Shown one piece after another: positions 5,412 to 51,029 of a stretch of DNA of 64,000 bases (positions are counted from its first letter, which is position 1; each line of letters opens with the position of its first letter). Source of the stretch: Burkholderiales bacterium (GTDB taxonomy: Bacteria > Pseudomonadota > Gammaproteobacteria > Burkholderiales > Burkholderiaceae_C); contig JAJUGJ010000005.1 in the NCBI GenBank assembly GCA_029268225.1, forward strand, positions 1 through 64,000, given 5' to 3'. A program made the translations under genes and the position numbers. The notes beneath the pieces were generated by a model. That model had not been told where the DNA came from and searched no databases. It worked only from the letters and a program-made list of their open reading frames with translations.

Positions 5412-5481
5412 GCCTTTTTTCGAATGTGGTGAATCGGCGGCCGGACCGCATCCGGCAGACATTGTTTGATTCGAGGAGACC

Positions 5482-6780: not shown

Positions 6781-8307
<1,527 letters not shown>

Positions 8308-27426: not shown

Positions 27427-27442
27427 TGGCACGCTTCATGCA
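27427..27442 (+). promoter_or_regulatory. Sigma-54-type -24/-12 promoter of the nitrogen transporter operon
   Basis: TGGCACG-N4-ATGCA keeps the invariant GG (-24) and GC (-12) at correct spacing and differs from the RpoN consensus TGGCACG-N4-TTGCA at one base. Transcription would start near 27453, about 48 bases before the substrate-binding protein ATG. The same promoter class precedes the convergent arm at 40410-40425. Confidence 0.7.
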
Positions 27443-27500
27443 GATCCTCTTTCGGTATTACCAACGTCTCCAACCGTAATAACCGTGGATGGGTCTCAAC

Positions 27501-28508
27501 ATGTCGTACAAGTCAGTTGCAAAGCGTGTGGTGGTGGGTGTCAAAGCCGTGGCGGTGGCCGCGGCGCTGACCGCGGGCTCCTCGGCCAGCTGGGCCGCTC
27601 AACCCCTGAAGATCGGCTACAGCGATTGGCCGGGCTGGGTGGCCTGGCAGGTGGCCATCGATAAGGGCTGGTTCAAGCAAGCCGGTGTGGACGTCAAGTT
27701 CGAGTGGTTTGACTACTCGGCCTCGATGGAGGCCTTTGCCGCCGGCAAGATCGATGGCGTCACGATGACCAATGGCGATGCCCTGGTGACCGGCGCCGGT
27801 GGTGGTCGCAACGTGATGATCATGCTGACCGACTACTCCAACGGCAACGACATGATCATCGGCAAGCCCGGCATCAAGTCGCTCAAGGACCTCAAGGGCA
27901 AGAAGGTGGCCGTGGAAGCCGGGCTGGTGGAGCACTTGCTGCTGCTCAACGGCCTGAAGAAGGCGGGTCTGAAGGAGTCGGATGTCACCCTGGTCAATGC
28001 CAAAACCAACGAGATGCCGCAGGTGCTGGCCTCCGGTGACGTGGCGGCGGTCGGGGCCTGGCAGCCCATCGCCGGCCAGGCGATCAAGGGCCTGCCCGGC
28101 TCGCGCCCCATCTATAGCTCAGCGGATGAGCCCGGCCTGATCTACGACGTGCTGGCCGTGAGCCCTACCAGCCTGGCCAGCCGCAAGGCCGATTGGCAAA
28201 AGGTGGTGGGCGTGTGGGACAAGGTGGTCACCTACATCGAAGACCCCAAGACCCAACCCGATGCGCTCAAGATCATGGCAGCGCGGGTGGGCATCCCCCC
28301 GGACGCCTACGCCAAGTTCCTCAAGGGCACCAAGCTGCTGTCGCTCAAGGATGGCAAGGCCGTCATGGCCAAGGGTGAGGGCTTCAAGTCGCTGTATGGC
28401 TCCAGCAAGATCGCCGATGCCTTCAACGTGGCCAACGACGTCTACAAGAAGCCGCAGCCGATCGACAGCTACATCGATCCCAGCCTGACCCAGGCCGCCA
28501 CGAAGTAA
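27501..28508 (+). CDS. NitT/TauT-type ABC substrate-binding protein of the guanidine/urea carboxylase cluster
   Basis: 335 residues with a signal peptide cut near SASWA (about 31). The mature part starts [25 protein letters not shown], the form seen in 'urea carboxylase-related' transporter binding proteins, a NitT/TauT (NMT1-like) subfamily. It would bind the imported nitrogen compound in the periplasm; guanidine or a related cation is inferred from the neighbouring riboswitch-controlled pathway, not from residues. An ATG 12 bases upstream (27489) is also possible; neither has a strong ribosome-binding site. Confidence 0.85.
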
Positions 28509-28518
28509 GGATCTCACC

Positions 28519-29484
28519 ATGAGTGCCACCGGCTGGTTTGCCGTGCGGGCGCCGCTGTCTCCGCGGCGCAAGCTCGTCCTCGGCGTCGCCTCGTTCTTGC
28601 TGCCGCTGCTGTTGTGGTCGGCAGTGAGTTACCTGCCGTTTCTATGGCACCCCCAGGTGCTGGTGACGCAGGTGGGCGATGTGGATTACCTCGAGGTGGG
28701 CATGCGCGTGGACCGCAGCGTGTTCGCCGAAGAGGTGGCCACGATGCAGGCCGCCGGACAAACCCCGCCGGTGGGGACGCCGGCCAACCCGGTCTACCTG
28801 CCGGCCCCGCATGAGGTGGCGCGCGCCTTCTACACGGCCTTCACCACCGAGCCGGAGCAGAAGGACGCCCCTTGGCTGCACGAAAGCCTGTGGCACTCGA
28901 TGACGATCATCTTCTGGGGCTTTCTGGTGTCGTCGCTGATCGGGGTGCCGCTGGGCATCGTCTGCGGCACCTACAGTGCGATCGCGCGGGTCCACGAGCC
29001 CTTCATCGAGTTCTTCCGCTACCTGCCGGCGCCCGCTTTCGGGGCCCTGGCGGTGGCCATCCTGGGCATCCATGACGGGCCCAAGATCGCGATCATCGTC
29101 ATCGGCACCTTCTTCCAGCAGGTGCTGGTGATCGCCAACACCACGCGCAAGCTGGACTTCGGTCTGCTGGAGGCGGCCCTGACGCTGGGCACCAAGCGCC
29201 TGCGCCTGATCACCCGGGTGGTCGTGCCTGGCATCTTGCCCGACCTGTACCGCGACCAGCGCGTGCTGCTGGGTTGGGCCTGGACCTACCTGATCGTGGC
29301 CGAGCTGATCGGCACCAGCTCGGGCATCACCTTCTTCATCACCCAGCAGGCGCGCTACCAGCACTTTGACAACGTGTACGCCGCCATCGCGATGATCGGG
29401 ATCATCGGGCTGGGCATCGACCTGCTGCTGGCCTGGCTGGGCCGCCACCTCTTTCCCTGGGATCGCGCCCAGGGCAAGCACTGA
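28519..29484 (+). CDS. NitT/TauT-type ABC transporter permease
   Basis: 321 residues. One N-terminal membrane helix (about 17-38) is followed by a ~100-residue extracytoplasmic stretch and then the BPD_transp_1 core, with the EAA-like loop EAALTLGTKRLRLITRVVVPG and FFRYLPAPAFGALAVAILGI. The extended N-terminal region before the first core helix is typical of the version linked to urea carboxylase genes. Forms the pore for the preceding binding protein and following ATPase; 10 bases after the former. Confidence 0.88.
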   Translation: MSATGWFAVRAPLSPRRKLVLGVASFLLPLLLWSAVSYLPFLWHPQVLVTQVGDVDYLEVGMRVDRSVFAEEVATMQAAGQTPPVGTPANPVYLPAPHEVARAFYTAFTTEPEQKDAPWLHESLWHSMTIIFWGFLVSSLIGVPLGIVCGTYSAIARVHEPFIEFFRYLPAPAFGALAVAILGIHDGPKIAIIVIGTFFQQVLVIANTTRKLDFGLLEAALTLGTKRLRLITRVVVPGILPDLYRDQRVLLGWAWTYLIVAELIGTSSGITFFITQQARYQHFDNVYAAIAMIGIIGLGIDLLLAWLGRHLFPWDRAQGKH

Positions 29485-29502
29485 GCATCCGGAGACTCCA
29501 TC

Positions 29503-30405
29503 ATGAGCGTGTCTTACCTCGATCAATCCGAGGCCGTGCGTGAGCGCTTCGCGCGCCTCCAGCAGCGTGAGGTCATCCTCGAAGTCCAGGGGCTGGGCAA
29601 GACCTATGACTCCCATCAGGGGCCGGTGACCGCACTCAAGGATGTGAACTTCAAGACCCACCGGCGCGAGTTTGTCTGTGTGATCGGGCCTTCGGGCTGT
29701 GGCAAGTCCACGCTGATCCGCATCCTCGCGGGGCTGGAGGCGCACACCTCGGGGCAGGTGCTGCTGGATGGCCAGCCGGTCCATGGGCCGGGCAAGGACC
29801 GCGGCATGGTGTTCCAGGGCTACACCCTGTTTCCCTGGTTGACGGTCAAGAAGAACGTGATGTTCGGCCTGGAGATGGCCAACACGGGCAAGAACGAAGC
29901 CGAAGCCCAGGCCCGTCAGTGGCTGGAGCTGGTGGGGTTGGCCAAGTTTGCCGATGCCTACCCGCACCAGTTGTCAGGCGGCATGAAGCAGCGCGTGGCC
30001 ATTGCCCGCGCGCTGGCCAACCAGCCGCGCATCTTGCTGATGGACGAGCCCTTCGGGGCGCTGGATGCGCAGACCCGCGCCAAGATGCAGGCGCACCTGC
30101 TGGAGATATGGCGCAACATCGACATCACCATCCTGTTCATCACGCACGACCTGGACGAGGCCATCTACCTGGCCGACCGCATCCTGGTGCTCAAGGCCCA
30201 CCCCGGCGAGGTGCAGGAGCTCATCGAGGTGCCGGTGCCCCGGCCACGCGGCCCGCAGCAGTTCGGCAGCCCCGAGTTCCTGGCGACCAAGGCGCGCCTG
30301 GAAGCCCTGATCCATCCGCCCACCGAAGCCACCGCGTCCGCCGAAGACGAGGACGTGGTGCCCCAGGTCATCCGCATGACGGATGTGCACGACAACGTGG
30401 AATGA
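29503..30405 (+). CDS. NitT/TauT-type ABC transporter ATP-binding protein
   Basis: 300 residues. Walker A is GPSGCGKST, the Q-loop region [15 protein letters not shown], the signature LSGGMKQR and Walker [13 protein letters not shown], with the switch His in [13 protein letters not shown]-terminal tail of about 40 residues ([15 protein letters not shown]) extends beyond the NitT/TauT ATPase core. A CCGGAG ribosome-binding site precedes the start. Confidence 0.92.
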
Positions 30406-30416
30406 GAGGCCCTGCG

Positions 30417-31202
30417 ATGTTCTGGTCACACCTCACCTGGGCAGAGTTGCCCGGTCAATTGCAACAGGTGGCTCATTCGGCGATCCTGCCAGTGGGCGCC
30501 ACCGAGCAGCACGGCCCGCACATGGGCTGTGGTATGGACACCGAGATCGCCGACAAGCTCTGCCGCGCAGTGTCGCAGCGCACGGGCGTGCCCATGCTGC
30601 CGCCACTGCCCTATGGCTGCTCGCTGGGCCACAGTCGGCGCTGGCCGGGCACCATCGCCGTGCAGCCCATCACCCTGATCGAGTTGGTCAAGCAAATTGG
30701 TGATGGGGCGTACCACAGCGGGGTGCGTCGCCTGTTCATCGTCAACACGCATGTGACCAATGCCGCGCCGCTGCGCTGTGCACTGGAGATGCTGCGTGCC
30801 GAGCACGACGACCTGATGGTGGCCGTCATCAACTCGCCCGACATCAGCGAACGGGTGCGGCGCTTCCACTTCGCCGATGCCACCGACTGGCATGCCAACG
30901 ATGCGGAGACCTCGCTGATGCTGGCGGTCTCGCCGGAGATCGTGCGCCCCGAGTTGCTGCACGCGGCCGATGACCCCGATCGCACCGAGGGCCAGGTCTT
31001 TGCCCACCCGGTCAACCGCACCAGTGCCAACGGTGTGACGGGGTTCCCGAGCCGCGCCACCGCCGAGAAGGGGCGTGAAGCCTTTGACTGGATGGTGGAA
31101 GACCTCTCGGCCCTGATTGCACGCGGTCAGGCGCAGACGCCGCCGCTGCCGCATTCCTATTTCGATTCCTGTTTCGATTCCCCCCTCGGGCCACAAGCCT
31201 GA
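30417..31202 (+). CDS. Creatininase-family amidohydrolase
   Basis: 261 residues from ATG 30417 (GAGAGG ribosome-binding site seven bases upstream). A further ATG at 30402 overlaps the ATPase stop and is also possible. The metal-binding pattern of the creatininase fold is visible: [20 protein letters not shown] supplies Glu, His and Asp, NTHVTN a His, and [11 protein letters not shown] a Glu. The family hydrolyses cyclic or linear amides and related C-N bonds with two metals. In this cluster it may act on the imported compound or a related guanidino metabolite; this is unproven. Confidence 0.85.
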
Positions 31203-31239
31203 GCCTTCTTTCCCCCGTTCTCACACCCGGAGTTCGTTC

Positions 31240-32601
31240 ATGCATTCCCCCGAACAGATCGCGGCCATCCAGCAGTCCCTCAAGGCCAAGGGCGTGAAGT
31301 ACTGCATCGGTGCCTACGTTGACATCCATGGCATCCAGAAAGCCAAGGTCGTGCCCATCGACCACCTGCCGCAGATGGCGGCGGGCTCGGAGCGCTACAC
31401 CGGCTACGCCCTCGACGGTCTGGGCCAGGCGCCCAACGAGGACGAGCTGACCTCGGTGCCCGACCTCAACCACATCGTGCAGTTGCCCTGGGAGCCCAAG
31501 GTGGCCTGGATGCCTGCCGACAACCATTTCCAGGGCCAGCCCTACCCGCTGAGCACCCGTGTGGCGCTCAAGAACGTGCTGGCGCAGGCCGCCGAAATGG
31601 GCTTTGGCATGAACCTGGGCATCGAGTGCGAGATCTACCTGCTCAAGCAGGGCGCGGACGGCAAGCTCTCCGTGCCCAACCCCGACGACAAGCTCAACAA
31701 GGCCTGCTATGACGTGCAGGGCTTCATGGACAGCTTCAGCTGGCTGGACAAGGTGGGCTCGTGCATCAACGACCTGGGCTGGGACCTCTACTCCTTCGAC
31801 CACGAGGACGCCAACGGCCAGTTCGAGTTCGACTTCAACTACAGCGACGCGCTGACCACCTGCGACCGGCTGACCTTCTTCCGCATGATGGCCAAGCACT
31901 ATGCCAAGGAAGAAGGCCTGATCGCGACGATGATGCCCAAGCCCTTTGCGGACAAGACCGGCACGGGCGCGCACTTCAACATGTCGCTCTATGACCTGAA
32001 GACCGGCAAGAACCTGTTTGCCTGCGATCCCAAGGACGACCCGCGCGGCATCGGCCTGACACCGCTGGGCTACCTGTTCGTGGGCGGCATTCTCAAGCAC
32101 GGTCGCGCGCTGTGTGCGGCCTTTGCGCCCACCGTCAACAGCTACAAGCGTCTGGTGCGCCGCGGCGCGATGAACTACTTCTCGTGGGCCCCGGTGTTCA
32201 ACTCCTATGGCTCGAACAACCGGACCAACTCGGTGCGCATCCCCGCTGGGGGCGGTCGCTGCGAGTCGCGCAATGCCGACGGCGCGGTCAACCCCTACCT
32301 GGCGGCGGCGCTCGCGCTGGCCGCAGGCCTGGAGGGCATCCGCGAGGGCCTGAACCCCGGTGCGCCCAACGAGGACAACCTGTACGAGCTGAGCGATGCA
32401 CAGCGCCGTGAGCGCGGCATCGAGTTCCTGCCGCAAACGCTGCAGGAGGCGGTGCAAGCGTTTGCCGACGACCCGCTGGTGGAGCGCACGCTGGGCAAGG
32501 GCCTGCGTGACGAGTTCATCAAGTACAAGACCCAGGAATGGGAGACCTACCACCTGTCGGTCAGCGAGTGGGAAGTCGAGCGCTACAGCCACATGTTCTG
32601 A
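31240..32601 (+). CDS. glnT: Glutamine synthetase, GlnT type
   Basis: 453 residues from ATG 31240. Catalytic blocks of glutamine synthetase are present: [12 protein letters not shown] (metal Glu residues), [37 protein letters not shown], the ATP-site segment NSYKRLV, and [23 protein letters not shown]. The type is GlnT/'type III' as in rhizobia and methylotrophs, which includes glutamine synthetase and gamma-glutamylmethylamide synthetase, so the amine acceptor is uncertain. NLYEL keeps a Tyr at the position used for adenylylation in GS-I. Most likely it captures ammonia released by the pathway encoded opposite. Confidence 0.9.
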
Positions 32602-32609
32602 GCCCCACC

Positions 32610-33068
32610 ATGGCCCTGCCTGCTGACACCCGCACGGGTCTGGTGACCCGCATCAGCATCTCCATGCCGGAGGAGCTGTTGCAGGAGCTCGACCACATGG
32701 TGACCGGGCAGGGCTATGAAAGCCGATCCCAGGCCATCGGGGCCATGATCCACACCCAGTTGCTGGAGCACAAGCGCCAGCTGGGCAACGAGGTGATGGT
32801 CGGCACCATCACCCTGCTGTATGACCGCTCGGTGCGTGGGCTGCAAAAGCAGCTCGCCGACCTGCAATGCGCCCACATCGACGAGGTGATCAGCTCGCTG
32901 CATGTGCACCTGGTGGGTCAGCAGATGATGGAGGTCATCCTGGTGCAAGGGCCAGCGGCGACGCTGCAGGCCATTGCCAACGCGATGATCACCTTGCGCG
33001 GCGTGGTGAGCGGGCGCCTTCAGTTGATGGCGGCCACGATGCCGCCGTTGCATCCCGGCACACGCTGA
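32610..33068 (+). CDS. NikR-like ribbon-helix-helix regulator with altered metal ligands
   Basis: 152 residues. The N-terminal ribbon-helix-helix (TRISISMPEELLQELDHMV) and the C-terminal ACT-like domain align with NikR along the whole length. Of the four high-affinity nickel ligands of E. coli NikR (His76, His87, His89, Cys95), only the two in LHVH are kept (His98, His100). The others become Cys87 and Met106. It follows glnT by eight bases and ends the operon before a strong terminator, so it likely regulates this nitrogen cluster, perhaps with a different metal. Confidence 0.85.
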   Translation: MALPADTRTGLVTRISISMPEELLQELDHMVTGQGYESRSQAIGAMIHTQLLEHKRQLGNEVMVGTITLLYDRSVRGLQKQLADLQCAHIDEVISSLHVHLVGQQMMEVILVQGPAATLQAIANAMITLRGVVSGRLQLMAATMPPLHPGTR

Positions 33069-33137: not shown

Positions 33138-34976
33138 TTATTGGGCCAGCCAGGCCTTCCAGCCGCCATGCGCGGTGATGTCGATGGCGCCCTCGGTGCC
33201 GAGCTCTTCACAGACGAAGCCCGGCACCACGCGGCCATCAGCCAGGGTGACCTTGCCGATGCCCAGCGGAGAAGGGATGCCGGCGACGAAGCTGCCGAAG
33301 GCGGATGCGGGCAGCTCCCACACCTCCAGCGCAATGGCCGCGCCGCCCTCGGCCACGCGGACCATGCCGGGCCGCGCCACCGGCCCACCCGGCAAGGCAT
33401 AGAGCCGGTACTGGGGCGCCGAGGTCGTACTGGCGACCAGACGGGCGCCCCGCGAGGTGAGTTGGGGATTGAGCGGCAGCCCGCTGAGGTGCGCGCCACA
33501 CACGGCCACCTGCACGGTGCCACTGCGTGCCGCATCGGGCGCGTGCAGTGCGGAGACCGTGTCCTCCAGCGCGGCCCAACCCTGCGCGGTGGCTCCCAGG
33601 GCATAGGCCGCGTCTTCCACGACCAGCTGCCGATGCAAGCGATCGGCCAGACGCAGCAGGCAGAGGTCGCGGTGGGCCGGGGCGGCCAAGGTCACGCCCC
33701 AGGGCAGACCCGCCGCGTCACCCGTCTGCTGAAAGCCCGCGGGCACGGCCACGGCGCTGTAGTCCAGCAGGTTCATGAAGTTCGTGTAGTAGCCCAGGTG
33801 GGAGTTGAGGCGAATCGGGTCCGCCTGCATCTCCGCGATGCGGTAGATAGTGCCGGCGGTGGGCGTGAGCAGGGTGTCGATCTGTGCCCAGACCGCATCA
33901 CAGGTGCGCTGCAGGGCCTTGAGGCGGTACTGGGCGGCAAAGGCCTCGGCCGCGGTGCGCGAGCGCCCGCCTTCGATGATGGTGCGCACAGGCGGGAACA
34001 CGGCCTCGGGCTGCGCGTCGATGAAGGCCTGGATGGCCACATAACGCTCGGCCACCCAGGGGCCTTCGTAGAGCAGGCGTGCGGTTTCCAGGAAGGGGGA
34101 CAGGTCGATCTCCACCGGCGTGCCGCCCAGGGCCTGCAGACGTTGCACCGACACCTGGAACAGGCGCGCGGCTTCGTCGTTGCCGAAGAAGGCCAGGTCC
34201 TGTGCGCGCGGCACCCCAAAGCGGAAGGGGCCAGCCGAGAAGTCCACGCCGGCAGGCTCGGCCGCACGGCTGTAGGGGTCGGCCGGGTCGAAGACAGCGG
34301 CCACCTGCAACACGGCATCGGCGTCCGCCGCGGTCAGCGCAAACACCGTCACCGTGTCCAGCGAACGGCAGGCCGGCACCACGCCGCGCGTCGACAGCAG
34401 GCCACAGGTGGGCTTGAGGCCAATCAGGTTGTGGAAGGCCGCCGGCACGCGACCGGAACCGGCCGTGTCGGTACCCAGCGCGAAGCTGACCCAGCCCGCC
34501 GCCGTCGCCACCGACGAGCCCGAGCTGGAGCCGCCCGAAATGAAGGCCGGATCGAAGCCATTCCGACACGCCCCATACGGTGAGCGCGTGCCATTGAGGC
34601 CGGTGGCGAACTGGTCCAGATTGGTTTTGCCGATCGGCACCGCACCGGCGGCGATCAGCTGGCGCACGACAAAGGCATCCTCCTCGGGCGTGTAGGCGAA
34701 CTCGGGGCAGGCGGCCGTGGTCGGGATGCCGGCCAGGTCGATGTTGTCCTTGATCGCAAAAGGCACGCCATACAGCGGCAGGCTGGCCGGATCCAGGCCT
34801 TCAAGGTGGGCCACATAGGGCTCGATCTCGGCCTCGGTGAGGCGGTGGATGAAGGCGTGGTGGGCGTCACCTGCGGCGCGGCGCATGGCCTCGCCGATGA
34901 GGGCGCGCACGCCCAGCCCTTGCCCATAGGCCGCACGCAGGCTGGTGAGGTCGAAACTGAGGTCCTGAATGCTCAT
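33138..34976 (-). CDS. atzF: Allophanate hydrolase
   Basis: 612 residues from ATG 34976, with a CGGAG ribosome-binding site. The amidase-signature triad is Lys76 (AIKDNID), cis-Ser150 (SGGSSSGSS) and nucleophile Ser174 (DTAGSGR); the spacing between these equals that of the Pseudomonas AtzF triad. A C-terminal domain of about 150 residues follows the amidase core, as in full-length AtzF. It splits allophanate to two CO2 and two NH3. A much longer upstream open frame overlaps the carboxylase gene and is rejected as a start. Last gene of the riboswitch-controlled minus-strand operon. Confidence 0.96.
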   Translation of the reverse strand: MSIQDLSFDLTSLRAAYGQGLGVRALIGEAMRRAAGDAHHAFIHRLTEAEIEPYVAHLEGLDPASLPLYGVPFAIKDNIDLAGIPTTAACPEFAYTPEEDAFVVRQLIAAGAVPIGKTNLDQFATGLNGTRSPYGACRNGFDPAFISGGSSSGSSVATAAGWVSFALGTDTAGSGRVPAAFHNLIGLKPTCGLLSTRGVVPACRSLDTVTVFALTAADADAVLQVAAVFDPADPYSRAAEPAGVDFSAGPFRFGVPRAQDLAFFGNDEAARLFQVSVQRLQALGGTPVEIDLSPFLETARLLYEGPWVAERYVAIQAFIDAQPEAVFPPVRTIIEGGRSRTAAEAFAAQYRLKALQRTCDAVWAQIDTLLTPTAGTIYRIAEMQADPIRLNSHLGYYTNFMNLLDYSAVAVPAGFQQTGDAAGLPWGVTLAAPAHRDLCLLRLADRLHRQLVVEDAAYALGATAQGWAALEDTVSALHAPDAARSGTVQVAVCGAHLSGLPLNPQLTSRGARLVASTTSAPQYRLYALPGGPVARPGMVRVAEGGAAIALEVWELPASAFGSFVAGIPSPLGIGKVTLADGRVVPGFVCEELGTEGAIDITAHGGWKAWLAQ

Positions 34977-35014
34977 GGTGAAGACTCCGTCACTTGATCT
35001 TTTTGCAATGGGGC

Positions 35015-38000
35015 TCACGCGGTGAGCTCGACCAGCACCAGCACGTCCTGGCCGGCCGCCACCGGGGCGCCTTCGCGGCACAGCAGCTTGTGCACGGTGG
35101 CGTCGTGCGGGGCGGTGATGCTGAACTCCATCTTCATGGACTCGACCACGATGAGGGTCTCGCCGGCTTTCACCTGCTGGCCCTCGCGCACCGCCACCTG
35201 CCACACGTTGCCGGGCACGCTGGTGGCCAAGGCGCGGCCGCCTGGGGGCAGGTCCAGTTCGCTGTCCGGGCCCGCGGCCGCCACGTCGGCATCGCTGGCG
35301 TAATCGGCCTGGCCGTTGGCGACCCAGCGCTCGCGCTCGGCTTCGAAGGCCGCCTGCTGGCGCGCCTTGAAGGCGGCGATGCTGTCGGCCTCCTCGGCCA
35401 GGAAGCGTCGGTAGTCCCCGAGGTTGAAGGTGGTGGGCTCGATGCGCAGCGGATAGCCGCCGTGCGGGAAGGTGGCGCGGATGCGCAGCAGCTCGTCGGC
35501 CTCGACCGGATAGAAGCGGATCTGGTCGAAGAAGCGCAGCAGCCAGGGCTGGCTGAAGGTCTCGCGCACGCTGTCGGTCCCGTGGCGCCAGCGGTTCCAC
35601 ATCTGCAAGGTGCGGCCGACGAACTGGTAGCCCCCCGGGCCTTCCATGCCGTAAACACACATGTAGGCCCCGCCAATGCCCACGGCGTTCTCGGGCGTCC
35701 AGGTGCGGGCCGGGTTGTACTTGGTGGTCACCAGGCGGTGACGCGGGTCCACCGGGGTGGCCACGGGGGCGCCCAGGTAGACGTCGCCCAGGCCGAGCAC
35801 CAGGTAGCTGGCGTCGAACACGATCTTGAAGACCTCGTCGATGCTGTCGAGGCCGTTGATGCGGCGGATGAACTCGATGTTGCTCGGACACCAGGGCGCG
35901 TCGGGCCGCACCGACTGCATGTACTTCTCGATGGCCAGGCGGGTCTGGGCGTCGTCCCACGACAGCGGCAGGTGCACGATGCGCGTGGGCACGGTGATGT
36001 CGTCGAGGGGCGGCAGCTTGTCTTCGGTGTCGAGCAGGACGCGCAGCAGGGTGTCGCGCGGCAGGCGACTGGGGTCGAAGTGGATCTGCAGCGAGCGGAT
36101 GCCCGGGGTCATGTCCACGATGCCGTCGAGACCCTGGCCGTCGTTCAGCGTCTTCAAGGCCTCCATCAGTGCGTGGACGCGGAAGCGCAGCTCCAGGTCC
36201 AGCACCAGGGCACCGAACTCCATCAGGATGTAGCGGTCCCCCGCCTGGCGCACCACCACGTGGGGCTTTTCGCCATCGGCCGCGACCTCGGCGAGGATGG
36301 GGCTGAGGCCCGCCTCACGCGCATCGACCGGGGCCGCGGGCAAGGGCGCCGCCCGGGTGCGCAGGCAGGCTTCCATGGCCTGCTCGCGCTCGGCCGCCTG
36401 CGCGGCAGTGAGGCGATGGAAGCGCACCGTGTCGCCCGGCCGCAGCTGGCCCAGCTTCCACAGCTCGGCGCTCACTACCACGGCCGGGCAGACGAAGCCG
36501 CCCAGGCTGGGACCGTCCGGCCCCAGGATCACCGGCATGTCTCCGGTGAAGTCGATGGCGCCAATGGCGTAGGCGTTGTCGTGGATGTTGGAGGGGTGTA
36601 GGCCAGCCTCGCCGCCATCGGTGCGGGCCCACTGCGGACGCGGGCCGATCAGGCGCACCCCGGTGCGGCTGGAGTTGTAGTGGATCTCCCAGTCGGTGTC
36701 GAAGAAGACGGCGATGTCCTCGTCCAGGAAGAAGTCCGGCGCGCCATGCGGGCCGTAGAGCACGCCCACATCCCAATGCCGCCCGAATGTCGGAACGGCT
36801 TCTGGTGCGACGTGCTGACCGGCCGTGCCGGCCCCCGGCTGGGCCAGGTGCAGCACATCGCCCACACGCAGGTTGCGCCCACCGTGGCCGCCGAACTGAC
36901 CCAGCGTGAAGGTGGCGCGGCTGCCCAGATACAGCGGGGTGTCCAGCCCGCCGCCCACCGCCAGGTAGATGCGGCATCCGACCTCGGCGCGGCCCATGGC
37001 CAGGGTGCTGCCCGCTGGCACGGCATGGCTCATCCATTGCGCCAGTGGCTCACCATTGAGCGTCACGCTCACCGGCGCGCCGGTCACGGCGATCACGGCC
37101 GCGGTGTGGAACTTCAGGGTGGGGCCTTGCAGGGTGCATTCCAGGGTGGCGGCATCCAAGGCGTTGCCCACCAGCTGGTTGGCCATGCGGTGCGCATACG
37201 CGTCCATCGGCCCCGAAGGCGGCACGCCAACGTCCCAGTAGCCCTGGCGGCCGGGCCAGTCCTGTACGGCGGTCTGCACGCCAGCGGCCAGCACCTCGAT
37301 GGTGTCAGGCTGGTAGGCCAGCTCGCTCAAGAAGCGGGTCACCTGGCGTCCCTCGCGGAACACCGGGTGGCGCACCACCTGGCGCAGGTAGGCCAGATTG
37401 GTTTCGATGCCGGCCACCCGGGTGTCGGCCAGGGCCGCATCGAGCTTCGACAGCGCCGAATCGCGGTCCTCAGCGGTGACGATGATCTTGGCCAGCATGG
37501 GGTCGTACCAGGCGGGTACCTCGGTGCCACGCTCGACCCAGCTGTCCACGCGCGCGTCGCTGGGGAAGACCACCTCGGTCAGCAGGCCGGCACTGGGCTG
37601 GAAGGCGCGCGCCGGGTCTTCGGCGTACAGGCGCACCTGGATGGACGCGCCCTGCGGCTGGGTGGCCAGCGAGGCCAGATCGGGCAGGTCGCCCGCGGCC
37701 AGGCGCACCATCCACGCGACCAGGTCCACGCCAAACACCTGCTCGGTCACGCCGTGCTCCACCTGCAGGCGGGTGTTGACCTCCAGGAAATAGAACGCGC
37801 CAGTGTCCGCGTCGTAGACGAACTCGACCGTACCGGCCGAGCGGTAGGCCACAGCCTGAGCCAGGCGCACGGCGGTGGCATGCAGGGCGGCGCGCTGCGC
37901 GTCACTCAGGCCGGGCGCAGGCGTCTCTTCGATCACCTTCTGGTTGCGGCGCTGCACCGAGCAGTCGCGCTCACCCAGCGCCAGCACCTGGCCCCGCCCG

Positions 38001-38644
38001 TCGCCGAACACCTGCACCTCGATGTGGCGGGCGCGTTCGACGAACTTCTCCAGGAACAGGCCCGCATCCTTGAAGTTGGCCGAGGCCAGGCGTTGCACCG
38101 AGGCAAAGGCCTCGGCCACATCGGCCTCGCTGCGCAACAGGCGCATGCCGATGCCGCCCCCGCCGGCCGTGCTTTTCAGCATCACGGGGTAGCCAATGCG
38201 GGTAGCTTCGCTCAACGCATGGTCCACGTCGCGCAGCAGGCCCGAGCCGGGCAGCAGCGGCACGTTGTGGGCCAAAGCCAGCTCGCGGGCGGTGTGCTTG
38301 AGGCCAAAGGCGCGCATCTGCGCGGCGGTCGGGCCGATGAAAGCGATGCCCGCGGCCTCGCAGGCGTCGGCAAAGCCGGGGTTCTCCGACAGGAAGCCAT
38401 AGCCGGGATGGATGGCCTGAGCCCCGCACTCGCGGGCAATGCGCAAGATGGTGTCCGCGCGCAGGTAGCTCTCGGCGGCAGGCGCGGGGCCCGCGCAGTA
38501 GGCCTCGTCGGCTTCGCGCACATGGCGGGCGCTGGCGTCGGCCTCGGAGTAGACGGCCACGCTGCGGATGCCCAGGGCCTTGAGCGTGCGGAGAATGCGG
38601 CAGGCGATGGCGCCACGGTTGGCGATGAGTACCTTGTCGAACAT
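35015..38644 (-). CDS. Guanidine/urea carboxylase (biotin-dependent, UCA family)
   Basis: 1209 residues from ATG 38644. Order: biotin carboxylase (1 to about 450, with [20 protein letters not shown] and ATP-grasp [13 protein letters not shown]), KipI/KipA-type carboxyltransferase domains (about 480-1090, with [19 protein letters not shown]), and a biotinyl domain with Lys1171 in [11 protein letters not shown]. The family was named for urea carboxylase, but bacterial members under guanidine-I riboswitches with DUF1989 partners carboxylate guanidine. The riboswitch and both DUF1989 genes are present here, so guanidine is the favoured substrate; urea remains possible. No separate allophanate hydrolase domain is fused, unlike the yeast enzyme. 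Confidence 0.9.
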
Positions 38645-38718
38645 GCGGTCCTGGTGCGGGCCGTCCCGCGTGGGTGTGTCGCGCAGCAGGCCGTCCTGCT
38701 GGCCAAAGGCATCAAGGC

Positions 38719-39378
38719 TCAGACAGGGTCCCACACCAGCAGCTGGATGGGCGTCGGGTTGTAGGCGTTAGAGGGGTTGATGAGCTGCGGACAGTTGGAG
38801 ATCCGCACCCACAGGTCCATCTCGGCCCGCAGCTCGACGTACTTGCCGGGGCCGGAGACACCGTCGTCGAACTTCAGGTCCCCCTCGGCCGTCACCGGCA
38901 CGTTCATGAAGAAGTTGACGTTGGGCACCAGGTCGGCCTTGCCCAGGCCGATGTCGGCGTGCTGCAGCGCCAGCAGGTAGTTGTCACGGCAGCTGTGCAT
39001 GAACTTCTTCTGCAGCGCGTAGCGCACGGTGTTGCTCTCGGCGGCGCAGGCCCCGCCCAGCGTGTCGTGGCGGCCGCAGGTGTCGGCCACGATGGTCAGC
39101 ATCGGGCGGCCCTCGTTGCTCATCAGCACCGAGTCCGTGGTCAGGTAGATGCCGCCTTGCGCCAGCATGGTGTCGGTGGCGCTGTAGTGTTCGGCAACGT
39201 CGTCGCGACGGTAGAAGATCACGTCGGCAGCCTGGTTGCCTTCCAGGTCAACGATGCGCAGGGTCTGGCCCTGGTCCACCGGGAACAGGATGGGCTCGCC
39301 GGCCGGGTGGCGCTGGTTGAGTACGGCGCGAGCGGGGTCCAGGGCACTCTCCTGGAGGCGGATGGCGGTGGCGGTCAT
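38719..39378 (-). CDS. DUF1989 protein UAAP2, probable carboxyguanidine deiminase subunit
   Basis: 219 residues from ATG 39378, with GGAGG eight bases upstream. DUF1989 features: [40 protein letters not shown] and [11 protein letters not shown]. Such proteins were called urea amidolyase-associated protein 2. Work on guanidine metabolism identified the paired DUF1989 proteins as the heteromeric carboxyguanidine deiminase (CgdAB) that turns carboxyguanidine into allophanate and ammonia. The conserved Cys residues ([12 protein letters not shown]) are plausible metal or catalytic ligands. Which subunit name applies was not decided here. Confidence 0.88.
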
Positions 39379-39392
39379 GGCGGGGCCTCCTG

Positions 39393-40199
39393 TCACAGGT
39401 AGAACTGATCGGTGTTGTGGTGGGCGCGGGCGTTCTCGGGCCGGAAGGTGCGGCACACGTCATCGGCCGCCGCCGGGCCACTGCGCCAGGCCACCACGCC
39501 CACCTTGCCGGGGGCATAGGCCTCGGCCGGGTCAAGCGGGTGCGGGGCCGTGGACACGGCCAGGATCAGGTCCATGTCGCAACGCAGTTCAACGAAGTCG
39601 CCCACCTGGCTGTGCCCGCGCGCAAAGTGAAAGCGCCCCTCGGCATCCACTGACACCTTGCTGAACAGGTTGACCGGCGCGATCAGGTCGCGGCGGCTCA
39701 GGCCATGCTTGCCGATCTCGATCAGCAGGCCGTCCTTGCCCGAGCGGTCCATGCCATTGCGGGCCTGCTCGAAGCGGTGCGCGCCGTAGCGGGCTTCCAT
39801 GCGTGGCGTGTCCAGCAAGGCCCCCAGCGGGTCGTGCCAGCCGAGGCTGTCTTGCGTGACGCTGGCGAGGGCCCGGCCCATGTCGCTCATCAGCACATGG
39901 CCACGGGTGTAGTGCGCGGTGTGCTGGGCCTTGAGCGAATCCGGCATGTTGTAGCGCTCCAGCGGGTGGTGCGCCGCATAGAGCACGACGCTGGCATTGA
40001 CCCCGGCATCCAGCGCCACAAAGCGCAAGGCGGTGCCACGACGCAGACGCCACGACCAGTGGGCGCCACCGGGCAAGGTCTCGGACCAGAGGATCGCTTC
40101 GGGCGGCAGACCGGCCAGCGCAACAGACGGATACCGCAGCCAGTGGGCGATGGCATCGACCGGGGCCGAGGCCGGCGGGTTGGGCAAAACAGGCGACAT
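39393..40199 (-). CDS. DUF1989 protein UAAP1, probable carboxyguanidine deiminase subunit
   Basis: 268 residues from ATG 40199; GGAG lies seven bases before the start. The UAAP1 pattern YNMPDSLKAQHTAHYTRGHVL is present, with a DUF1989 core related to the next gene (PVNLFSKVSVDAEG, VELRCDMDLI). First gene of the operon, so it is the gene whose translation start lies closest to the riboswitch. It is expected to pair with UAAP2. Confidence 0.88.
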   Translation of the reverse strand: MSPVLPNPPASAPVDAIAHWLRYPSVALAGLPPEAILWSETLPGGAHWSWRLRRGTALRFVALDAGVNASVVLYAAHHPLERYNMPDSLKAQHTAHYTRGHVLMSDMGRALASVTQDSLGWHDPLGALLDTPRMEARYGAHRFEQARNGMDRSGKDGLLIEIGKHGLSRRDLIAPVNLFSKVSVDAEGRFHFARGHSQVGDFVELRCDMDLILAVSTAPHPLDPAEAYAPGKVGVVAWRSGPAAADDVCRTFRPENARAHHNTDQFYL

Positions 40200-40257
40200 G
40201 GTCAAACTCCGTGGAGGGGCACAAAAGGCGAGAGACACCCGTGCCGTGGCACAAGAA

Positions 40258-40362
40258 TCTCCCGGGCTTTTGTCCCTCCGTGGAGCCACGTCACCGTGGC
40301 CGAGCGCTCTCGGACCAGACCGTCAGGTGGGTGACCACGCCTGACACGGAACCCTAGCGCTC
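40258..40362 (-). promoter_or_regulatory. Guanidine-I (ykkC) riboswitch
   Basis: Read on the minus strand, the leader contains the class signatures in order: CGCTAGGGTTCCG, a hairpin GTCAGG...CCTGAC (40340-40345 with 40322-40327), CTGGTCCGAGAG, a hairpin CCACGGTGACGTGG, and the 3' block CACGGAGGGACAAAAGCCCG ending GGAGA. These are the conserved guanidine-binding elements of the ykkC-yxkD class. It lies about 60 bases before UAAP1 and some 37 bases after the predicted sigma-54 start. Guanidine binding is expected to turn the operon on. Confidence 0.95.
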
Positions 40363-40409
40363 ATTCAGCCAGCCCCCCATGGGGGCCGAACTGCTCTCTC
40401 TTCACCTCA

Positions 40410-40425
40410 TGCAAGACGGGTGCCA
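40410..40425 (-). promoter_or_regulatory. Sigma-54-type -24/-12 promoter of the guanidine operon
   Basis: On the minus strand TGGCACC-N4-TTGCA has the invariant GG and GC at exact RpoN spacing and a full -12 element. Transcription would begin near 40399 and run through the guanidine-I riboswitch. This couples the operon to an enhancer-binding activator, most likely NtrC under nitrogen limitation. Confidence 0.8.
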
Positions 40426-40480: not shown

Positions 40481-41317
40481 TCAGTCGGTGCACACGGTGC
40501 GCCGACTTGGTGCGCATCCCTGGGTGCGCCAGAAGCGGCAGGCGGTACCAAAAGCGCGGAGGATCGCCATGGACACCGGGTTCTCGGCGGCCTGCCACTC
40601 CGGGTGCCACTGCACGGCGAGGTTGAAGCCCGGCGCCTCCGGGAACGAGAAGGCCTCCACCAGGCCATCGGGGGCCGTGGCCTCCACGCGGGCCCCCGGC
40701 GCCAACTGGGCCACACCCTGACCATGCAGGCTGTTGACCATCACTTGCTCGGCCTGAAGTATGTCGGCCAAGAGCCTGCCGCTGCTCAGGCTGACGGGGT
40801 GAAAAGGCCCGTACTGCTCTGCCAGGGGCAGGTCTTCTGAAGGGCCACGATGGTCGGCCAAGCCGGGCTGCTCATGCACGGCCTGATGCAGGCTGCCGCC
40901 CATGGCCGTGTTGACCTCCTGAAAGCCACGGCAAATGGCCAGCAGCGGCAACCCTCGGGCCAGCGCGAGGCGAATCAGAGGCAAGGTCCACTGGTCGCGC
41001 AAAGGGTCCAGCGGCAGGCTGGGGTCTCGCACGGCTTGACCAAAATATTTGGGGTCCACATTCGACGGCGACCCGGTGAGGAGCACCCCATCGGCCATCT
41101 CCAGCCAGTCCAGCAACTCCTCGGGATGTGAGGCAGGCACGATCACCGGCAGGCACCCGGCCAGGCGCACCGCCTCCACATACTTGCGGCCCACCATGTG
41201 GAACGGGTGTTCGCCCCGCATGCGGTTGCAGGCGGGCAGCAACACGCGGGGCGCGCGGCGGGGCAAGGGGCTGTTGCTCAGGTTCAAATCGGATGCGAAA
41301 ACAGCGGGATCGGACAT
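40481..41317 (-). CDS. puuD: Gamma-glutamyl-gamma-aminobutyrate hydrolase family (class I glutamine amidotransferase-like)
   Basis: 278 residues from ATG 41317. The nucleophile Cys129 is in LAICRGFQEVNTAMGG and the partner His/Glu in LAVQWHPEWQ, a class I amidotransferase triad. PuuD-like features GEHPFHMVGRKYVEAVRLAG and DGVLLTGSPSNVDPKYF are clear. Such enzymes cleave gamma-glutamyl amides in polyamine catabolism. It is immediately upstream of the riboswitch-controlled operon on the same strand but has its own upstream region; the guanidine operon promoter overlaps its 3' flank. Together with a GlnT-type ligase at 31240 a gamma-glutamylated intermediate is conceivable. Confidence 0.85.
   Translation of the reverse strand: MSDPAVFASDLNLSNSPLPRRAPRVLLPACNRMRGEHPFHMVGRKYVEAVRLAGCLPVIVPASHPEELLDWLEMADGVLLTGSPSNVDPKYFGQAVRDPSLPLDPLRDQWTLPLIRLALARGLPLLAICRGFQEVNTAMGGSLHQAVHEQPGLADHRGPSEDLPLAEQYGPFHPVSLSSGRLLADILQAEQVMVNSLHGQGVAQLAPGARVEATAPDGLVEAFSFPEAPGFNLAVQWHPEWQAAENPVSMAILRAFGTACRFWRTQGCAPSRRTVCTD
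40498..40514. promoter_or_regulatory. NtrC-like dyad inside the 3' end of puuD
   Basis: TGCGCC-N5-GGTGCG matches the NtrC consensus at ten of twelve defined positions. It is about 90 bases upstream of the sigma-54 promoter, a normal enhancer distance, and sits among further GGTGC repeats (40487-40530). Confidence 0.45.
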
Positions 41318-41534
41318 GGGGGGAGCCAGCGAAAGTGAAGACGCTGTGGGCACAAGCAAGAAGCTCACCCACGGTGTCGGCTTGTGTCAATCGGCGGCGG
41401 AATTTGGCGACCTGTGTACGCAGGGCTAACCATAGCCCACACCGCCAACCTGTCGCCTAACATTCCTGCTTGCTCGTCAGGAGCGGCTGGCCGAAGTCAG
41501 TCAGGGACAAGTCAATGCAGTGAGTGGAGGAACG

Positions 41535-42044: not shown

Positions 42045-43160
42045 CTAGTCGGCCTGCACGCAACGATCTCGCCCGGCGTGCTTGGCCGCATACAGGGCGC
42101 GGTCGGCGCGTTGCAGCAGCACGTCCACCCCTTCAGGGGCGCGCCACAGCGCATAGCCTGCCGAGAAGCTGATGCGCAGCGTCGGTACGGTCTCGGAGAC
42201 GAGCGTCGTGCGCAGGCGCGATTGCAGGCGCTCGAGCGCTTGTCGGGCTTTGCTGGCCTCGTGCGTATCTGGCAGCACGATGAGGAACTCTTCCCCACCC
42301 CAGCGGGCGACAAGGTCCGTGTCGCGCAGCACATCGCGCGCGGCCTGGGCAAAGGCCACCAGCACCTCGTCCCCCACCTGGTGACCGTGCAGGTCGTTGA
42401 TCTGCTTGAAGTGGTCCAGGTCCATCAGGACCACGCCAAAGGGCCGCCCGGTGAGCAGGGCGCGCTGATGCTCCTGGTCCAGACGCTCCTGGCCGTAGAG
42501 CCGGCTGAGCAGTCCCGTGAGGGCATCATGGCGGGTGACCCGCTCCAGTGCGAGCTGTGCGCTGGCCAGTTCTCGCCGCTCGGTGTGCACGCGCTCACGC
42601 AAGCGCGCGAACTTGTGCGACTGCACCGTGATCAGGCCCATGATGAAGGCCGCCGACAGCAGCTTGATGGCCTGCGACTCCGGCCGAAACGCCGGCAGGG
42701 GCATGACGAAGCCGCAGGCGAGCAGGATCAGGAGCATGCCGATCAGGATCGCGCCTGTGCGCACGGCCGCTTTGGGCGTCAAGCCCATGAAACCAAACAC
42801 CAGGGCCAGCCCCATGGTTTGCAGCAGGGCGGCCCGTCCGGTCGGTGCGGTGGCGTAGGCCACCACCGCGACCAGACAGCCCCAGAGGATCTGAACGGAC
42901 ATGAGACCGGGGTCGGCGAAGCGCTGTGTCCAGCCGCTGCGAACCAGGGGGTAGAACAGCAGCAAGCCTGGCACCATCAGCACCATGAAGACCAGACCCA
43001 AGCCAGGGCTGATGCGCTGCTGCGGGATGGCGAAGGTCACCAACACCAGAAACCACACGAGGTAGACCAGGCTGCCGAGCAGGCTCAGGAGCGTACGGTC
43101 ACGCAAGCGGGGCTCGGTGCCCAGCAGCTGATCGGACCAGGACAAGCTGCGTGCACTCAT
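42045..43160 (-). CDS. Membrane-bound diguanylate cyclase (GGEEF)
   Basis: 371 residues. Six membrane helices fill residues 22-178, then a linker helix and a GGDEF domain (about 205-371). The active-site GGEEF is at 288-292 and the inhibitory RxxD (RDTD) at 279-282, five residues before it, so the enzyme should make cyclic di-GMP under product control. Its ATG overlaps the stop of the next gene by four bases; the two proteins share architecture and look like an old duplication. Confidence 0.92.
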   Translation of the reverse strand: MSARSLSWSDQLLGTEPRLRDRTLLSLLGSLVYLVWFLVLVTFAIPQQRISPGLGLVFMVLMVPGLLLFYPLVRSGWTQRFADPGLMSVQILWGCLVAVVAYATAPTGRAALLQTMGLALVFGFMGLTPKAAVRTGAILIGMLLILLACGFVMPLPAFRPESQAIKLLSAAFIMGLITVQSHKFARLRERVHTERRELASAQLALERVTRHDALTGLLSRLYGQERLDQEHQRALLTGRPFGVVLMDLDHFKQINDLHGHQVGDEVLVAFAQAARDVLRDTDLVARWGGEEFLIVLPDTHEASKARQALERLQSRLRTTLVSETVPTLRISFSAGYALWRAPEGVDVLLQRADRALYAAKHAGRDRCVQAD

Positions 43161-44305
43161 GTGCGGTCGGCCAGCACCGTGCGGGCACGGCCCTGGGCTT
43201 TGGCTTTGTAGAGGGCGCGGTCGGCCCGTTCCAGATCGCGGTGCAGAGGCACGCGGCCTCCGGGCTCGCACAGGCCGGCTGAGAAGCTCACGCTCAGGCC
43301 GTCAGCGTAGCGCGACCAGTCGTGCGTGCGGATGCATTGCTGCAAGTCCTCCAGACGTTGCTGGGCGGTGGGCAGGCCGGTCTCGGGCATCAGCAGCAGG
43401 AACTCCTCGCCGCCCCAGCGAGCGAGCTGGTCGGTGGCGGCCAGGGCGGTCTGGGCCACTTGGGCGAAGGCCTGCAGTACCGCGTCGCCGATGGCATGAC
43501 CGTGGCGGTCATTGATCTGTTTGAAGTGGTCCAGGTCAATGATGGCCAGGCAGAAGGCCTGCTCGGTGCGGCGCAGGCGGCGCACCTCCTCGTCGAGCAG
43601 GGTCTGCATGTGGCGGCGGTTGATGAGGCCGGTCAGGGCGTCATGGGCCGAGGCCCGCTCCAGGTCGGCGACGGTGCGGGCGAGCTCGGCGCGCTGGCTC
43701 AGCATCTGATGGCGCATCTGGTAGCTTTTGAGGGATACCTGGCGCATCACGGGCATGACGATGGCGCCGGTGCCCAGGCTGATCCACTCGGAGATCAGGT
43801 CGATTTGGGTGTCGTGCAGTTGGTCGTGCAGCAAGGTGGCGCAGACCATCAGCGTGAGCGAGCCGACGGTGGCGAGCACCAGTTGCCGGGTGTCGAGCCG
43901 GTGGATGTCGAACAGCATGAGCAGGCACAGCCACAGCAAGGCCAAGCCACGTGATGCGTCGATCAGGGTGTAGGCCAACACCACGGCGCCACAGCCGAAC
44001 AGCACCTGAGGAAAGATCAGGGCCGGGTCGTGCCAGTGTTCGGTCAGGTCACTGCGCAGCAAGGCCCAGAACAAGAGCAGACCGGTGGCACACCAGGCCG
44101 CCAGCGCATGGGCCGCCCACAAGGGCACCGCATGCAGGGTCGCGCCGATGTAGGCCGACGCCACCCCGATGCAGTAGGGCAGCACCGTGATCTGCAGGCG
44201 ATGCCGCCCCTGGCGGGCAGTGCCCTGCCAGCCCGTCGCCGACACCCGCTCCCGAGGCGCCGGTGTCTTGCTGTGGGAGGAGGGGAGGAGGGGGGTGGAC
44301 ACCAT
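43157..44305 (-). CDS. Membrane-bound diguanylate cyclase (GGEEF), inhibitory site lost
   Basis: 382 residues from ATG 44305. About six membrane helices (residues 40-185) precede the GGDEF domain (about 215-375). GGEEF is intact at 298-302, but the I-site position reads AATD (289-292) in place of RxxD, so feedback inhibition is probably lost. It is translationally coupled to the following paralogue (42045-43160). An upstream GTG would add 24 residues. Confidence 0.9.
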   Translation of the reverse strand: MVSTPLLPSSHSKTPAPRERVSATGWQGTARQGRHRLQITVLPYCIGVASAYIGATLHAVPLWAAHALAAWCATGLLLFWALLRSDLTEHWHDPALIFPQVLFGCGAVVLAYTLIDASRGLALLWLCLLMLFDIHRLDTRQLVLATVGSLTLMVCATLLHDQLHDTQIDLISEWISLGTGAIVMPVMRQVSLKSYQMRHQMLSQRAELARTVADLERASAHDALTGLINRRHMQTLLDEEVRRLRRTEQAFCLAIIDLDHFKQINDRHGHAIGDAVLQAFAQVAQTALAATDQLARWGGEEFLLLMPETGLPTAQQRLEDLQQCIRTHDWSRYADGLSVSFSAGLCEPGGRVPLHRDLERADRALYKAKAQGRARTVLADRT

Positions 44306-44395
44306 GAACCGGTCGACAAAGCGCAGACACGCGTGTCGATGATGCCAGTTTCGGCTGGCGTCGGTGAGGGTGGCCACCCGTTCTGGGGTATGTCC

Positions 44396-45298
44396 TTACG
44401 CGGAGACGAGGGGCGATGAGACGCCATGGGCACTGCGCGGCTTGAGGCCGAGCAGGGCACGGGCTTCGGCGGGGCTGGCGATGGCGCGACCGGCGTTGCG
44501 CGCGCACTGGGCCAGGGCCTCAATCAGCTGACCGTTGCCGGTGGTGCGGGCGCCGCCGGGCAGGTAGAAGGTGTCTTCCACGCCGGTGCGCAGCATGCCG
44601 CCGAGGTCGGCGGTGGCCTGGTGCACGGCCCAGATCTCTTCGCGGCCGATCAGGGTGGTCTGCCAGATCGTGTCGGGTTCGCGGTACTTGACCAGCAGCT
44701 TGAGCAGGTCGGCGTCCACCGGCATGCCCGAGGCCACGCCCATCACGAAGTTGTATTCCAGGTGGTCGGTCATGCCGGCCTTCTTGTACATGCCCACTGA
44801 GCGCACGATGCCCACGTCAAAGCATTCGAACTCGGCGCGGGTGCCGGTCTCGTTCATCACGTCGAGCATGGCCTTGACCTTGTCGACCTGGTTGTCGAAC
44901 AGCATCGGGGGCCAGGCCCACTCGCCGTTGTCCTTGATCTTGAGGTAGTTCAGGCTGCCGGCGTTGCAGGCGGCGATCTCGGGGCGCACCGCGCGGATGC
45001 AAGCCGCCGGACCGGAGATGTCGGTGCCGACCACGCCGGTCGTCAGGTTGATGATGACGTCGGGGCAGGCCTCGCGGATCGCGGTGTCGATTTCGGCGGC
45101 CACAGCCGGGTCCCAGCTGGGGAAGCGCCCCATGCCGGGTGCCTGCTGGCGCAGGTGCACGTGCATGATGGACGCGCCTGCGTTGTAGGCCTCGCGCGCG
45201 GCGGCGGCCATTTCCTGGGCCGTGACAGGCACCGGGTGTTGCTTGGGGTCGGTCAGCACGCCGGTGAGCGCGCAGGTGAGAATGGCCTTGTCCATCAT
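44396..45298 (-). CDS. BKACE family (DUF849) beta-keto acid cleavage enzyme
   Basis: 300 residues. The zinc ligands of the family are in place: His46 and His48 in IMHVHLR and Glu241 in GVEDTFYLPGG. BKACE enzymes condense a beta-keto acid with acetyl-CoA and split it to acetoacetate and a new acyl-CoA. The Glu found near position 14 in the lysine-pathway member Kce, which contacts an amino group, is Leu here (TGVLTDP), suggesting a different, less polar substrate. It overlaps the carboxylase alpha gene by four bases and is the last gene of an atuCDEF-like operon. An alternative ATG is at 45295. Confidence 0.9.
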   Translation of the reverse strand: MMDKAILTCALTGVLTDPKQHPVPVTAQEMAAAAREAYNAGASIMHVHLRQQAPGMGRFPSWDPAVAAEIDTAIREACPDVIINLTTGVVGTDISGPAACIRAVRPEIAACNAGSLNYLKIKDNGEWAWPPMLFDNQVDKVKAMLDVMNETGTRAEFECFDVGIVRSVGMYKKAGMTDHLEYNFVMGVASGMPVDADLLKLLVKYREPDTIWQTTLIGREEIWAVHQATADLGGMLRTGVEDTFYLPGGARTTGNGQLIEALAQCARNAGRAIASPAEARALLGLKPRSAHGVSSPLVSA

Positions 45299-47271: not shown

Positions 47272-47283
47272 GGACTTCGAACC

Positions 47284-48123: not shown

Positions 48124-48133
48124 GGTGTGATCC

Positions 48134-49288: not shown

Positions 49289-49355
49289 GAGCGGTCCTTG
49301 ATACGGCGGGTGGGGCAGACGGTGCAGAGGGGAGGGCGAGGCTGAACAGCAGGGC

Positions 49356-50969
<1,614 letters not shown>

Positions 50970-51013
50970 CTTGGTGAACCAGTCTGGAGAGGACAGGTTC
51001 ACTGTAGATTTGC

Positions 51014-51029
51014 TTGACGTTAACGTCAA
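51014..51029. promoter_or_regulatory. Palindromic operator of the atu-like operon
   Basis: TTGACGTTAACGTCAA is a perfect 16-bp palindrome, 45 bases before the atuC-like start and 149 bases before the MerR gene. It resembles the palindromes reported for LiuR-type MerR regulators. A second dyad, CTAGGTA and TACCTAG with an AAC spacer, lies at 51041-51057. Confidence 0.7.

Follow-up and report, generated by a model that had tools for sequence, protein, structure and literature searches.

Can a protein stand in for the RNA switches by which bacteria sense guanidine? In the sections drawn on here, a 2025 review names riboswitches as the sole known guanidine receptors besides transporters and enzymes, and adds that guanidine-binding regulatory proteins may yet emerge (PMC12186494). 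The question is raised by a stretch of 64,000 nucleotides from a Burkholderiales bacterium (GenBank assembly GCA_029268225.1, contig JAJUGJ010000005.1, positions 1 to 64,000), here called the window. Very probably the window holds a locus for assimilating the nitrogen of guanidine, made up of two convergent halves, a catabolic operon on the minus strand and an uptake block on the plus strand, and it probably lets the bacterium draw nitrogen from guanidine. The original prediction had recognised a guanidine operon in the catabolic half; that reading was right, but it omitted a second riboswitch, a sigma-54 promoter motif, the convergent uptake block and, within this block, a gene for a NikR-like protein. 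The enzymes and the layout with two riboswitches are of a known kind, and it is the layered control, including the NikR-like protein, that is unusual. That protein and a guanidine riboswitch appear to substitute for each other, which seems to us the part most worth following, the guanidine operon itself being ordinary by current knowledge. Comparisons were made with a set of 80 named guanidine loci and, separately, with a sample of 399 genomes of the order.

The probable uptake block and its NikR-like protein

The plus-strand block spans positions 27427-33068, with genes from 27489 to 33068, and faces the catabolic operon. It comprises an ABC importer with substrate-binding protein (27489..28508, PF09084), permease (28519..29484, PF00528) and ATPase (29503..30405, PF00005), followed by a creatininase-family amidohydrolase (30417..31202, PF02633, 229 bits, in a frame conserved in relatives), a type III glutamine synthetase (31240..32601, TIGR03105, 651 bits, cut-off 470) and the NikR-like regulator (32538..33068). 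The start codons of hydrolase and synthetase are inferred, that of the regulator may lie further in, and the hydrolase does not reach the creatininase model TIGR04448 (113.6 bits, cut-off 235). Homologues of at least one member of the block (identity of at least 57%, or E ≤1e-15 for the NikR-like protein) lie within 31 of the 80 guanidine loci; 20 of the 80 have both hydrolase and synthetase, and 23 have the NikR-like gene. The commonest order, on one strand, is importer, hydrolase, synthetase, NikR-like gene, cgdA, cgdB, gca, the last three being catabolic genes described below; the convergent arrangement of the window recurs in L071, L072, L085 and L090. Because homologues of the importer sit in guanidine operons, in five of them (L116, L118, L119, L122 and L126) directly behind a guanidine-I riboswitch (Gd-I), its cargo is probably guanidine or a close relative, and the block as a whole is probably the uptake half of the guanidine pathway.

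The NikR-like protein combines a ribbon-helix-helix domain (PF01402) with NikR_C (PF08753). Of the NikR nickel ligands His76, His87, His89 and Cys95, as given in the part of PMC7055735 used here, the last is Met in the window. This position is non-Cys in 38 of 38 distinct loci that bear the gene, while His87 is kept in all 38, His89 in 35 and His76 in 28. The 38 comprise 26 with the window counted, after removal of 3 repeats from 28 rows, and 12 of the order sample, with DNA matches of at most 94.2% to the earlier loci. A second NikR, with the Cys retained, is encoded in the source genome outside the window (locus L159; G000:C5:158510-158740, minus strand). Within the order sample the NikR-like protein occurs in 13 of 399 genomes, and a glutamine synthetase gene adjoins it in 12 of the 13. 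Setting aside the window's own genome, 11 of the remaining 12 contain a match to the carboxylase gene gca (E ≤1e-200), that in G229 over residues 1-745 only; as a loose baseline, gca was matched along its whole length in 3 of 24 order-level relatives. The two genes lie within ~7 kb of each other in 6 of the 12.

At the head of the block, the sigma-54-like motif TGGCACGCTTCATGCA (27427..27442, plus strand) agrees with the consensus TGGCAC-N5-TTGCW at 10 of 11 positions; alone it is not beyond chance in the window, and its spacing to the operator is the same in relatives. Just after it, at the expected transcription start, lies a candidate operator of NikR type, GTATTA-N16-TAATAA (27455..27482, plus strand), to which shuffles of the window offered no equivalent. 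In every one of the 16 loci that carry the NikR-like gene and could be read, an operator scores 11 or 12 of 12 against GTAWTA-N16-TAWTAC, 3-13 nt past a sigma-54-like motif (at least 9/11), the consensus having been set after viewing 10 of the 16, with L134, L136, L162, L163, L166 and L168 independent of it. The chance of a score of at least 11 in such a stretch is 0.7%, and of 12, 0.08%. Seven loci without the gene (L116, L118, L119, L122, L123, L126 and L130) score 8/12, and no NikR-like protein was found in their genomes with a query that gives matches in the order sample. A later set of seven, retrieved through the NikR-like protein, has the operator in six (L184-L189); in the seventh, L190, His76 and Cys95 of the NikR-like protein are replaced, and Gd-I (102.6 bits) stands directly before the importer.

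Altogether 30 importer promoters were read. The operator is present in 22, Gd-I directly upstream in 6 and Gd-I ~1 kb upstream in 1 (L130/L167), both together in none; L123 has neither in the part of its promoter that was read. Among the 29 loci without an upstream Gd-I, 22 whole genomes were searched and 16 had no Gd-I anywhere. The NikR-like gene is in the locus in 16 of 16 genomes without Gd-I, as against 1 of 6 with it. Before the window's own importer no riboswitch reached significance, the best E value of a filter-free R1 search being 0.12 and a search of Rfam at E ≤1 giving one weak Twister-sister match. Since operator and Gd-I never occur together, the protein switch and the RNA switch may replace each other, though the independent swaps are few, because they lie mainly within Methylophilaceae-like genomes plus G453. 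We rejected the use of loci with only the guanidine-II riboswitch (Gd-II) as proof that Gd-I is lacking, given that many flanks end at a contig end or at the 7 kb limit and that 6 of the 22 whole genomes searched did contain a Gd-I. As a separate observation, the importer of L096 is preceded by the NikR operator, and the genome of this locus also has a Gd-I (G064:C17:310076-310178, minus strand) ~1.3 kb past the end of the locus, on the opposite strand.

Our proposal, tentative and held at somewhat less than even confidence, is that the NikR-like protein is a repressor responsive to guanidine or a guanidino compound, a protein counterpart of Gd-I; that the uptake genes have one kind of sigma-54 promoter, behind which either sensor can take the other's place; and that in the window both are in use together, one for each half of a single pathway. 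The importer, which would carry guanidine or a relative, has a sigma-54-like motif of its own and would be repressed by the NikR-like protein at the operator over the presumed transcription start. We consider it rather unlikely that the protein, its site altered, still regulates in response to metals and is found in guanidine loci incidentally. The retention of His87 and, in all but three loci, of His89 is what such a regulator might display, the creatininase family uses metals, and the swaps with Gd-I are few. Cys95, however, is missing in all 38 loci, the same genome encodes a Cys-bearing NikR elsewhere, operator and Gd-I are never together in 30 importer promoters, and gca is matched in nearly every order genome that has the NikR-like gene.

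Similarly improbable, in our judgement, is a different guanidino compound as both the cargo of the uptake block and the signal for the NikR-like protein; a creatinine-like ring, which the hydrolase would open, is one example. Against this reading, the same block stands directly behind Gd-I in five loci, and in L114, L121, L132, L142 and L150 the importer and the NikR-like gene are present while no hydrolase was matched at the threshold applied. Yet the block does contain a creatininase-family gene, and three further observations count against guanidine as its cargo and in favour of another compound. The substrate-binding protein scores about 152.4-152.8 bits with TIGR03427, below the cut-off of 333.9; in 5 of the 12 order genomes (G110, G223, G259, G289 and G378) gca is over 100 kb distant or on a different contig, which is less direct support for a shared function; and G088 has the NikR-like gene but no gca match in the order-genome search.

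The putative guanidine-responsive repressor resembles NikR (PMC7055735, in part) in its ribbon-helix-helix and NikR_C domains and in an operator of two half-sites at N16 spacing, and it differs in the loss of Cys95 and in a variable His76. The spacing of the classical operator, GTATGA-N16-TCATAC, is kept and its half-sites are changed, to GTAWTA-N16-TAWTAC placed just after a sigma-54-like motif. Among the literature matches listed, no title or abstract joins NikR or creatininase with guanidine, and the word NikR is absent from the main texts of PMC12508155, PMC11410670 and PMC12186494. The locus offers a concrete candidate for a guanidine-sensing protein together with a predicted operator and a natural riboswitch swap, making the question of such proteins directly testable.

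Riboswitches and promoter motif of the catabolic operon

For the leader of the minus-strand operon, the guanidine-I class had been proposed at 40258-40362. The covariance-model search set beforehand as a check bears this out, placing the Gd-I aptamer at 40257..40368 (minus strand; RF00442, 88.3 bits against a gathering threshold of 63, E 1.7e-14), and this is the single match in the whole source genome. By models built in this analysis, partly trained on the same loci that they counted, Gd-I lies upstream of gca on the same strand in 51 of the 80 loci, Gd-II no more than 250 nt before gca in 62, and both in 37; the Gd-I counts are lower bounds, because several flanks end at a contig end or at the 7 kb limit.

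An anti-aptamer hairpin is predicted at 40206..40287 (minus strand; fold of 40288-40190, -49.1 kcal/mol, z -5.19), one long hairpin spanning the 3' part of the aptamer, the linker and the Shine-Dalgarno sequence of cgdA. Real linkers fold with the aptamer tail more stably than shuffled ones, with a mean z of -3.43 and z ≤ -2 in 45 of 50 loci. An intrinsic terminator after the window's Gd-I was rejected, there being no clear U-run behind the hairpin, and a translational or Rho-linked platform is therefore preferred. Gd-I would be an ON switch that frees the cgdA start region when guanidine binds. Two further candidates were rejected: complementarity of the aptamer tail alone, for which only 16 of 52 loci had ≤5/100 shuffles as good, and pairing of the aptamer with the Shine-Dalgarno sequence as something special in itself, only the overall stability being clearly beyond chance.

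A second switch lies in the gap between cgdB and gca. This is Gd-II, or mini-ykkC (38656..38702, minus strand; RF01068, 36.4 bits, cut-off 32), with two ACGR-type hairpins and a 3' end 11 nt before the gca ATG, and it would act as an ON switch before the carboxylase gene. In an alignment of 22 selected relatives, pairing holds in 98.9% of cells, and changes on both sides are seen in 9 of the 12 pairs, a level reached by 0 of 500 shuffles; the rows were chosen for having hairpins, which favours the inner pairs, though the three outer pairs of helix 1, not required by the hairpin filter, also covary. Two results sit less well with this account of the switches. Pairing of the Shine-Dalgarno sequence behind Gd-I is only modestly enriched (40 of 50 loci, against 64.8% of 3000 shuffled linkers), and the Gd-II region (38725-38625) folds into both hairpins yet is no stabler than its shuffles (z -0.36). 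An impression from a first scan that Gd-II is rare in the genus (10 of 61 genomes) was discarded, the scan having scored at most 81 candidates per genome and the gca leaders having shown more.

Placement of Gd-II varies among relatives. L101 has extra copies at 3192-3240 (minus), 5427-5476 (plus) and 6931-6980 (plus), of which two precede cgdA and gca respectively and the third is on the opposite strand, besides a Gd-I at 3510-3645. L113 has an extra copy on the opposite strand (3116-3164, minus), and in the Hyphomicrobium loci L143 (5511-5561) and L147 (5507-5558) Gd-II precedes cgdA, not gca.

Upstream of Gd-I, the motif TGGCACCCGTCTTGCA (40410..40425, minus strand) matches the sigma-54 -24/-12 consensus at 11 of 11 positions. 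Position 40425, where the originally predicted interval ended, is its first base, although the motif went unmentioned. It is the sole perfect match in the window, in which the three matches with one mismatch allowed are at chance level; the signal comes instead from conservation before Gd-I across loci. In 35 of 51 loci, the window included, a motif of at least 10/11 is found 28-56 nt ahead of Gd-I, against 0.05% of dinucleotide shuffles, and one of at least 9/11 in 43 of 51, against 1.6%; it is absent in the other 8. The source genome has rpoN (451.5 bits), and the catabolic operon would by these signs be under sigma-54 control. The weakest part is an NtrC-like site, GCACCAAGTCGGCGC (40499..40513, minus strand), with one mismatch to the consensus GCACC-N5-GGTGC. 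Of 50 loci, 25 have such a site, with no more than one mismatch, in the 320 nt upstream, against 2.7% in simple shuffles. NtrC probably takes part in the control of the operon, which would hence respond to nitrogen limitation. The conservation of the sigma-54 motifs suggests that these bacteria tune their use of guanidine to nitrogen status as well as to guanidine itself, which would be in keeping with guanidine serving as a genuine nitrogen source in nature. No title or abstract among the literature matches listed joins guanidine, riboswitch, sigma54 and NtrC.

Guanidine as the probable substrate

Downstream of the leader, the two DUF1989 proteins, the carboxylase of urea carboxylase type and the allophanate hydrolase expected from the original prediction all score above curated NCBIfam cut-offs. 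The DUF1989 pair, the putative carboxyguanidine deiminase subunits, consists of cgdA (39393..40199, minus strand; UAAP1, TIGR03425, 333 bits, cut-off 206) and cgdB (38719..39378, minus strand; UAAP2, TIGR03424, 318 bits, cut-off 285), both also above the cut-off of PF09347. The gene gca (35015..38644, minus strand; TIGR02712, 1892 bits, cut-off 1304) encodes a full-length biotin-dependent carboxylase whose closest named relatives are in an unclassified Burkholderiales genome (93%), Aquabacterium parvum (83%) and Hydrogenophaga species. The allophanate hydrolase gene follows (33138..34976, minus strand; TIGR02713, 797 bits, cut-off 511; product aligned to 4gyr). Its Lys76-Ser150-Ser174 triad and the biotinyl Lys1171 of the carboxylase are all present, as had been claimed.

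Guanidine and urea carboxylases are told apart by an Asp at the position of Kluyveromyces lactis residue 1330, with Asp at 1584 also required (PMC11410670), Asp there marking guanidine and Asn urea (PMC12186494), in the parts of both papers used. Alignment with the K. lactis enzyme (5i8i), the second check set for the prediction, gives Asp698 for yeast Asn1330 and Asp954 for yeast Asp1584, pointing to guanidine, and all 80 related loci have Asp at both positions. Together with the RF00442 match, this residue of the carboxyltransferase supports the guanidine reading, and we infer that guanidine is the substrate of Gca in life. Urea assimilation by a urea amidolyase, with guanidine merely a side signal, is very improbable: it has the TIGR02712 name 'urea carboxylase', which name-based models do assign as foreseen, and against it the Asp in place of Asn, an operon with two guanidine riboswitch classes and a DUF1989 pair of which the urea route has no need.

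The genes, both riboswitches, the diagnostic residues and the conserved promoter and operator motifs are there in the sequence, and from them a pathway can be drawn. Guanidine carboxylase would convert guanidine to carboxyguanidine, CgdAB would convert this to allophanate, and allophanate hydrolase would release ammonia. Control of the catabolic half would be threefold, through a sigma-54 promoter at which NtrC probably acts, the Gd-I ON switch in the leader and the Gd-II ON switch before gca.

Known layouts and neighbouring genes

The published comparisons that follow draw on portions of the papers. A guanidine operon of Vreelandella boliviensis carries both Gd-I and Gd-II, with measured KD values (PMC12508155), and the two classes share one guanidine operon in three enterobacteria also (PMC12186494). 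The V. boliviensis operon is like that of the window in that its leader has Gd-I and its cgdB-gca gap has Gd-II, and in its guanidine carboxylase, CgdAB and allophanate hydrolase. It has mgdH and mgdL, unlike the window; the window differs from it, as far as described, in the sigma-54 motif before Gd-I and in the convergent block of importer, creatininase-family gene, glutamine synthetase and NikR-like gene. Another published layout has Gd-I ahead of the deiminase genes and Gd-II ahead of the carboxylase and hydrolase genes, as in the window. There the importer genes belong to the Gd-I part, whereas the probable importer of the window is convergent and has a NikR-type operator.

Just upstream of the catabolic operon lies a gene for a peptidase of family C26, gamma-glutamyl-gamma-aminobutyrate hydrolase-like (40481-41368), matched among the 80 loci only in L071. 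Two adjoining diguanylate cyclase (GGDEF) genes with similar best matches follow at 42045-44377 (minus strand), and positions 44396-51029 hold an acyl-CoA carboxylase-type cluster of biotin carboxylase, enoyl-CoA hydratase family, acyl-CoA dehydrogenase, carboxyltransferase and 3-keto-acid cleavage family genes.

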